Assembly (NCBI GenBank): GCA_017456545.1
Contig: JAFTJE010000011.1
Coordinates: 1-37,542 of the forward strand
Length of the DNA stretch: 37,542 bases
Reading direction: 5' to 3'
From: Clostridia bacterium
GTDB taxonomy: Bacteria; Bacillota; Clostridia; Oscillospirales; CAG-272
Part shown: one piece after another, positions 37,206-37,542 of the stretch
Position numbering within the stretch: the stretch's first letter is position 1
How the letters are laid out: the number at the start of each line of letters is the position of its first letter
Translations under genes and position numbers: made by a program
The notes under the pieces: generated by a model
The model's input: the letters and a program-made list of their open reading frames with translations, nothing else
What the model was told of the DNA's origin: nothing
Databases searched by the model: none

Positions 37206-37283
37206 CGCGGGGTGGAGCAGCTTGGTAGCTCGTCGGGCTCATAACCCGAAGGTCATGTGGTTCAAATCCCTTCCCCGCAACCA
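37206..37283 (+). tRNA. initiator tRNA-Met (anticodon CAT) with irregular T arm
   Basis: 78 bases with CCA. Initiator marks are present: C1 opposite A72 (acceptor CGCGGGG with CCCCGCA), and three G-C pairs around the CTCATAA loop. D arm normal. The T arm is odd: the 5' strand ATGTGG has six bases against CCCTT, so the stem needs a bulged T and leaves a T-T mismatch. Five bases after tRNA-Leu, same transcript. It could be a weak or decaying gene copy. Confidence 0.88.
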
Positions 37284-37328
37284 ATAAAAGAAAAAACACA
37301 TCCACACGGATGTGTTTTTTCTTTTATT
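37283..37328 (+). terminator. terminator after tRNA-Met
   Basis: Perfect 21-bp stem from AATAAAAG through ACACATCC and back, loop ACAC, with internal A6/T6 tracts, starting at the last base of the tRNA. Confidence 0.93.
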
Positions 37329-37330
37329 CG

Positions 37331-37380
37331 CTACGGAATGAGGCTTGAGCCATATGGTCAAGGGATTATGAGCCCGAGGG
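37331..37380. repeat. imperfect inverted copy of the tRNA-Met 3' half
   Basis: On the minus strand this reads like the tRNA-Met from anticodon stem to acceptor. TTATGAGCCCGA (37366-37377) is the exact complement of the anticodon arm at 37233-37244; CTTGAGCC sits where the T loop would be, and CGGAA lies opposite the acceptor TTCCCCG. It is placed symmetrically across the terminator hairpin. Confidence 0.7.
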
Positions 37381-37398
37381 CGAATAACTTGAACGCCA

Positions 37399-37425
37399 AA
37401 GAAAACAACTGTGTGTTGTTTTCTT
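37399..37425. repeat. hairpin in the tRNA-Met downstream element
   Basis: Perfect 11-bp stem AAGAAAACAAC with its complement and a 5-base loop. The surrounding 37381-37514 has no gene. Confidence 0.7.
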
Positions 37426-37514
37426 GCCAGCGTTTCTCCGCCGAACAAGGAGTATGCCAAGTTGAGTGTAAACGAAGTGTCGAAACGCGGCAGACGACTA
37501 TGTGAACGGAGAGA

Positions 37515-37542
37515 AAGGTCATGTGGTTCAAATCCCTTCCCC
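37515..37542 (+). repeat. direct copy of the tRNA-Met 3' end at the window edge
   Basis: 28 bases identical to 37250-37277, beginning AAGGTCATG and ending in CTTCCCC with the same T-arm irregularity. The sequence before it does not match the tRNA 5' half. The copy runs off the window. Confidence 0.8.

Follow-up and report, generated by a model that had tools for sequence, protein, structure and literature searches.

Introduction

tRNA genes are classic landing sites of bacterial mobile DNA. The integrases that serve such elements are usually tuned to one or a few tRNA genes, as described for Ms6, where the anticodon loop and the T-loop are given as the two classes of phage integration site, class I and class II respectively (PMC1762012). 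Islands that target tRNA genes, displaced tRNA fragments and islands stacked behind one another have all been described, as set out in two accounts of such islands (PMC4383910, PMC9897764).

Here we analyse a window of 37,542 nucleotides (the whole stretch of DNA under study) from a Clostridia genome, in which a tRNA-Met gene is followed by both an inverted and a direct copy of part of its own sequence. In contrast to integrases tuned to one or a few genes, a single tiny core, flanked by arms that vary with the host, stands behind tRNAs of 12 amino-acid types among the copies listed in our searches. Word searches of open-licence papers did not find an integrase-less unit of 130-270 bp whose inverted arm follows the T-loop and whose core recurs across tRNA species.

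The tRNA-Met locus

The window is the whole of contig C8 of the source genome (G000). A pair of tRNA genes lies near its end, and the features of the locus are as follows.

37112..37200, + strand: tRNA-Leu(taa), first of the gene pair (ARAGORN, Rfam)
37206..37283, + strand: tRNA-Met(cat), the host tRNA of the unit (ARAGORN, Rfam)
37275..37336, no strand assigned: terminator-like palindrome directly 3' of tRNA-Met, with 29-nt arms, a 4-nt loop and 90% complementarity
37345..37377, + strand: left arm, which repeats 37233-37265 (from the anticodon arm into the T arm) imperfectly and in inverted orientation
37380..37514, + strand: type C body, also present in other genomes in units behind tRNA-Met and tRNA-Cys (9-sequence alignment)
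37515..37542, + strand: right arm, identical to 37249-37276 in direct orientation and truncated where the contig ends

Both copies of tRNA-Met sequence to which the initial annotation had drawn attention are present. The direct copy is exact, 37249-37276 and 37515-37542 agreeing at 28 of 28 nt, with a counted spacing of 238 bases in place of the 237 first given. The inverted copy sets 37345-37377 against 37233-37265 (33 nt, 76% complementary) and includes TTATGAGCCCGA at 37366, a 12-base exact inverted match to the anticodon arm of tRNA-Met. None of 500 dinucleotide shuffles of 37284-37542 reaches either score: the best of them stands at 26 for the direct copy, which scores 56 and clears it widely, and at 25 for the inverted copy, which scores 26 and clears it narrowly. 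On this basis we reject a chance origin of the two copies. Folded as single-stranded DNA, 37206-37542 does better than 100 of 100 shuffles (z -7.6), and in this fold the left arm pairs with tRNA-Met; the arm has no close T-loop match. The body of the unit has no Rfam match above the gathering score, and membership of a known Rfam family was rejected on that basis.

The window stops within the direct copy, as it would if a simple tandem duplication of tRNA-Met had been cut by the contig end, the explanation that the initial annotation had set against its own. ARAGORN calls no second complete tRNA-Met in the window up to the contig end at 37542. A search of the source genome with the unit, suggested at that time, returns a 141-bp stretch at C10:54204-54344 that is 99% identical to part of it; there the copy continues into a terminator-like palindrome, followed by DNA-cytosine methyltransferase genes, with no tRNA gene. 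This continuation speaks against a tandem duplication, which would also fail to account for the inverted arm, and we regard such a duplication as extremely unlikely. The best reading of the sequence is that 37284-37542 represents one unit of a family of very small tRNA-linked elements.

tRNA 3' flanks across the genus

The 3' flanks of tRNA genes were surveyed in five genomes of one genus (G000, G007, G008, G009 and G017), with 158 of 167 tRNA records retained after nine with less than 150 bp of downstream sequence were dropped. Taking as the criterion an exact direct copy of at least 14 nt of the tRNA's own 3' part, no more than 1.2 kb downstream, we found copies at 22 of the 158 tRNA genes, in 0 of 1580 swapped-tRNA controls and in 0 of 158 upstream flanks; at 136 of the 158 the longest copy is below 14 nt. 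Inverted copies scoring at least 26 accompany 17 of 158 tRNAs; the corresponding frequency is 0.06% among swapped controls, and none of 157 upstream flanks has one. Together with the 500 shuffles, the 22 tRNA genes with copies uphold the earlier statement that the arrangement is not chance at one locus.

The direct copy starts 2-7 positions after G53, in the T-loop, at 19 of the 22 genes. In the other three it starts 11 positions before G53 (the tRNA-Met of the window), 21 positions before it (a tRNA-Asn) and on G53 itself (a tRNA-Pro). A left arm with at most one mismatch from the complement of the tRNA's own T-loop occurs at 10 of the 22 tRNAs with a direct copy, at 4 of 122 without a copy and at none upstream. 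The tRNA-Met unit of the window is not among these 10, and arms are less exact in unit types other than type D, the window's included.

Among the 30 distinct tRNA genes collected from the source genome, whose 3' flanks were read, the same plan recurs at tRNA-Glu(ctc), Pro(tgg), Arg(acg), Ser(tga) and Ser(gct): the tRNA is followed by a terminator palindrome, a partial inverted tRNA copy, a body and a direct copy of the tRNA tail. At tRNA-Arg(acg) the partial inverted copy is not above background, and at tRNA-Arg(acg) and Ser(gct) the same terminator comes again after the direct tail copy. The related units measure about 130-270 bp each, their lengths, like the body types, the terminators outside the window and the break point of type C, having been judged by eye. 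All genomes are draft or metagenome assemblies, in which arrays may be collapsed or broken.

A parallel had initially been drawn with the tRNA-Gln gene of the same window, where the features are as follows.

10406..10481, - strand: tRNA-Gln(ttg) (ARAGORN)
10344..10369, - strand: weak inverted copy behind tRNA-Gln (score 20, reached by 3.4% of swapped controls)
10224..10232, - strand: 9-nt direct match to the tRNA-Gln tail, the longest direct copy there and not significant alone

The 9-nt match is possibly a decayed right arm. Taken alone, tRNA-Gln is a weak second instance; the part of the claim that stands is that the plan is repeated, and it is so at the other tRNAs. A Gut-1 RNA (RF01706) lies downstream of tRNA-Gln at window positions 9249-9325, and in the same genome two copies on opposite strands (L023 1614-1688 and 1708-1800) lie directly behind tRNA-Trp. 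These Gut-1 Rfam matches fall on another kind of tRNA tail and not on the units described here.

Orthologous loci with and without units

A comparison of the locus across genomes, proposed in the initial annotation, could be made between species. At tRNA-Met(cat), G000 and G007 match from upstream through the tRNA over 581 bp at 92% and again downstream over 1122 bp at 88%, and between these flanks the sequence of G007 is 349 bp longer, a surplus that can be read as two units. G016 carries 161 bp more than G000, with a downstream match of only 115 bp. Both G007 and G016 have two matches to the tRNA tail, and in each the additional sequence brings its own terminator; three tail copies follow the tRNA in G016. 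That orthologous tRNA-Met(cat) loci are distinguished by entire units and by a repeated tRNA tail gives substance to the early remark that the direct copy resembles an attachment-site duplication, as does the recurrence of the arrangement at other tRNAs. The first terminator behind tRNA-Leu(gag) is common to G000, which has no unit there, and G007, which has one; a simple insertion picture would not predict this. A related element lies 5' of tRNA-Met in G008 (L060 1501-1905) and G022 (L062), flanked by direct copies of the 5' part of the tRNA.

The type C body was aligned from the window and eight other units, taking 9 of the 10 matches of the search, from the source genome, G003, G007, G008, G009, G016, G017 and G022; the alignment covers 37380-37521, and one of the aligned units sits at tRNA-Cys. 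The arms of the window unit extend into the anticodon arm, and, judged by eye, the break point of type C units at tRNA-Met seems to fall within the anticodon or the variable region. On contig C10 of the source genome (L008 9460-13400), a type C unit that lacks an upstream tRNA precedes a copy of the tRNA-Met tail and two genes for DNA-cytosine methyltransferases; in the G007 counterpart (L115) the unit is present and these genes are absent. On the same contig (L008 5266-5765), a skipping-rope RNA (RF02924) lies just upstream of a broken IS200-like transposase gene.

A common core behind many tRNA species

In the genus, the type D core is found downstream of tRNA-Pro, Trp, Met and Leu(gag). The exact core occurs 15 times in 6 of 29 genomes, and in 11 of these cases a tRNA lies no more than about 220 bp upstream. 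Scanning a single genome from each of 84,980 species returned at least 119 stretches, and the 80 loci that were read come from metagenome-assembled genomes (MAGs) or uncultured bacteria, mostly Oscillospiraceae or Clostridia. Among 84 listed MAG copies, 71 have at least 200 bp of upstream sequence: a same-strand tRNA 3' end lies within 100 bp in 26 of the 71 and within 700 bp in 4 more, and 41 have no tRNA within 700 bp upstream. One listed MAG copy lies behind an opposite-strand tRNA, and one has a same-strand tRNA just downstream.

For the arms we considered 31 tRNA-linked copies among the matches listed (the 26 MAG copies, one MAG copy with shorter upstream sequence and 4 from the genus), whose hosts span the 12 amino-acid types. 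Because these rows were found by exact pattern, conservation of the core follows by construction and the arm statistics alone inform. An exact 8-nt reverse complement of the host T-loop is present in the left arm of 28 of the 31 listed copies, against 9 of 730 for other T-loops, and a right-arm match of at least 11 nt, starting 1-4 positions after G53, is present in 27 of the 31. Alignment scores exceed the 95th percentile of swapped controls for 27 of the 31 right arms and only 14 of the 31 left arms, the lower figure arising because T-loops are alike. A helix between the two arms has standard pairs in 96.6% of cells, with changes on both sides at 3 of 7 pairs; it was named from one row and then counted over 27 of the 31 rows, the 4 without a nearby right arm being dropped, and RNAalifold run on the core D alignment did not predict it unaided.

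Preferred T-loop starts and host diversity bear directly on an account that needs no unit-specific enzyme. Errors of DNA synthesis could build such arrays if the nascent strand folded at the terminator palindrome and copied the tRNA tail in reverse, with further switches adding direct copies and unequal crossing-over multiplying the units. The left arm does come directly after the terminator palindrome, and near-identical tandem units exist at L253, L257 and L375, but synthesis errors leave unexplained both the one core behind so many listed hosts and the preferred starts of right arms within the T-loop. We judge this account unlikely.

Covariation of the arms would also be expected if the units were structured RNAs, transcribed behind the tRNA (for example in tRNA processing or termination) and selected for RNA pairing between their arms, and 37284-37514 folds strongly as RNA (z -6.2). 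The placement of the units behind a terminator speaks against such a role, as do the differences in units between species at one and the same tRNA and the 136 of 158 tRNAs without long copies, so that an RNA function appears quite unlikely.

The units might also be what is left of large integrase-bearing islands at tRNAs after deletion of everything but the ends. Islands that carry displaced tRNA tails are common, going by the two accounts cited above (PMC4383910, PMC9897764), and one tyrosine recombinase gene of the source genome adjoins a tRNA, tRNA-Ser(gga). Random deletion, however, would not yield the same core with matched arms at many tRNA species, and we consider this origin very unlikely. 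Nor do we take the tRNA-Met locus for an island whose integrase lies out of sight, since the units are about 130-270 bp long, occur at many tRNA species and have the inverted copy as part of their design. We return below to the interpretation we prefer, that of small elements linked to tRNA genes in their own right.

The type D core also resides in interspersed repeats of another kind. Among 50 listed MAG and viral copies without an upstream tRNA, the left flank is GCGAAGC-like in 41, T-arm-like in 5 and neither in 4. Non-tRNA repeats with the core (GGCTCCC...GGGTAAGCGAAGCGC...) were seen at L242, L244, L246, L272, L300, L362 and others. Viral contigs carry the core in 4 and 9 stretches for two patterns; of these, L361 has two tandem units with T-arm-like arms, L364 is a half core and the rest lie in non-tRNA repeats. 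At L277 a copy of the core lies downstream of a tmRNA gene. Arms resembling tmRNA also occur at L255, L263, L275, L304 and L361, and no tmRNA was called at any of these five. Tandem type D units with tmRNA-like arms lie at contig edges at the starts of L255 and L263 and at L361 11900-12234, an arrangement which indicates that arrays may break assemblies.

A plasmid search with a type D unit gave no match, and the core D unit of L018 has no Rfam match above the gathering score. A 401-base query that includes the tRNA gene matched 283 records of a phage collection; the 20 listed match the tRNA end alone (20-23% of the query) and are therefore uninformative on the unit.

Mechanism and candidate enzymes

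Comparison of the loci shows that units are present at some loci and absent from others, that the tRNA tail is repeated, that units stack and that host-matched arms flank a common core. The reading that we favour, and hold to be rather probable, is that these are non-autonomous foldback elements which a trans-acting enzyme recombines into tRNA loops and which stack at tRNA 3' ends. A unit would insert at, and stack behind, the 3' end of a tRNA gene (or of at least one tmRNA gene), bringing along its own terminator and a fresh tRNA tail that includes CCA. The left arm would come next, as the reverse complement of the host T-loop region or, in window-like units, of the anticodon and T arms, followed by the structured body and by a right arm that would be the displaced old tRNA tail. 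Site-specific recombination would take place inside a tRNA loop, the T-loop in most units and probably the anticodon or variable region in type C, and the enzyme acting in trans would most likely be a tyrosine recombinase. We infer that the process is enzymatic and still active.

Tyrosine recombinases are encoded in 27 of 29 genomes of the genus. The two in the source genome lie on C12 and C43, neither on C8: one is a Xer-like protein of 339 aa, below curated cut-offs, and the other a protein of 363 aa, whose gene is the one adjoining tRNA-Ser(gga). Reverse transcriptase is found in 3 of 29 genomes and in none of G000, G007 and G016, which carry core D units; Y1 (HUH) transposase is found in 12 of 29, and in neither of the unit-bearing G007 and G016, the latter an assembly that is 61% complete. 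A reverse transcriptase (retroelement) and a Y1/HUH transposase (IS200/IS605, REP/RAYT) were each rejected as the general driver, both being too patchy and missing from these unit-bearing genomes. With those two enzymes so patchy and tyrosine recombinases in nearly every genome, a tyrosine recombinase is the leading, unproven candidate; none is tied to the units.

The alternation of arms around hairpins and the folding of the strand at the window suggest folded-strand recombination, for which the folded single strand would be the substrate. A more specific scheme, which we put forward tentatively and consider doubtful, is an integron-like system at the tRNA and tmRNA genes of Clostridia. A recombinase acting in trans would place small cassettes, as folded strands, into T-loops or anticodon loops. 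The tRNA half-site would be rebuilt by the hairpin stem, and cassettes could be retargeted between tRNA species.

Comparison with known systems

The host tail carried in both orientations points to a hitherto undescribed mode of tRNA gene targeting. If the arms reflect movement, they would embody a general rule for such targeting, perhaps a new relative of folded-strand recombination. The units would escape island finders, because finders such as Islander, as described, require an integrase gene (PMC4383910). Even if the arms do not reflect movement, such stacks turn up repeatedly in assemblies of gut Clostridia and could plausibly explain why contigs break at tRNA genes, the window being one example.

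MITEs and other small inverted-repeat elements are small, non-coding, foldback and repeated, and the units are alike in these respects. MITEs have terminal inverted repeats that are fixed per element and independent of the target, whereas the terminal arms of the units track the host tRNA, with the host T-loop in the left arm of 28 of the 31 listed copies.

A likeness also exists to 23S rRNA intervening sequences with S23 genes (known from such sequences; PMC4990558), which are small elements in a structural-RNA gene. Unlike these, the units lie at tRNA ends, not within rRNA helices, and have no S23 gene at their size. S23-family genes are present in 27 of 29 genomes of the genus. In the five surveyed genomes, 8 of 20 S23-family four-helix-bundle genes lie 250-400 bp behind a same-strand tRNA (loci of these genes include L009 13-297, L023, L117 and L124), with distances taken by hand and two pieces at G008:C31 counted as one gene. 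In G007 an S23 gene lies between tRNA-Glu and a 14-nt copy of the tRNA-Glu tail.

As in tRNA/tmRNA islands of the Islander type (PMC4383910, as far as described there), we see insertion at the tRNA 3' end, a regenerated gene, a displaced tail in the same orientation and stacking; a regenerated tRNA with such a tail occurs at 22 of 158 tRNAs, and loci with and without units are found. Unlike islands, the units are 130-270 bp and not kilobases long, too short to encode an integrase and without its gene, they have an inverted arm, and one core serves many tRNA species.

A further comparison is with integron attI/attC arrays, whose attC features are described in PMC8946536. In such arrays each cassette carries a gene; genes as cassettes are not established for the units. 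The case for them is weakened by the G016 array (L381 1420-2600, minus strand, G016:C7). There the gene for a 225-aa protein without a Pfam match has inverted ends near CTAAAGGACAG and lies within a type D unit, inside the loop of its terminator; it appears to be a small insertion in its own right. The S23 gene of G007 between tRNA-Glu and a tail copy is a second gene in such a position to be considered here. No integron integrase (IntI) was identified in the source genome, whose two tyrosine recombinases score 96 and 63 bits, well short of the TIGR02249 cut-off of 265. The anchor, too, differs, being a tRNA gene. Like integron arrays, the units have inverted and direct arms that alternate around a hairpin, they stack behind an anchor site, and they form imperfect palindromes that fold as single strands, as seen both in the window and in the 96.6% pairing of the core D arm helix.
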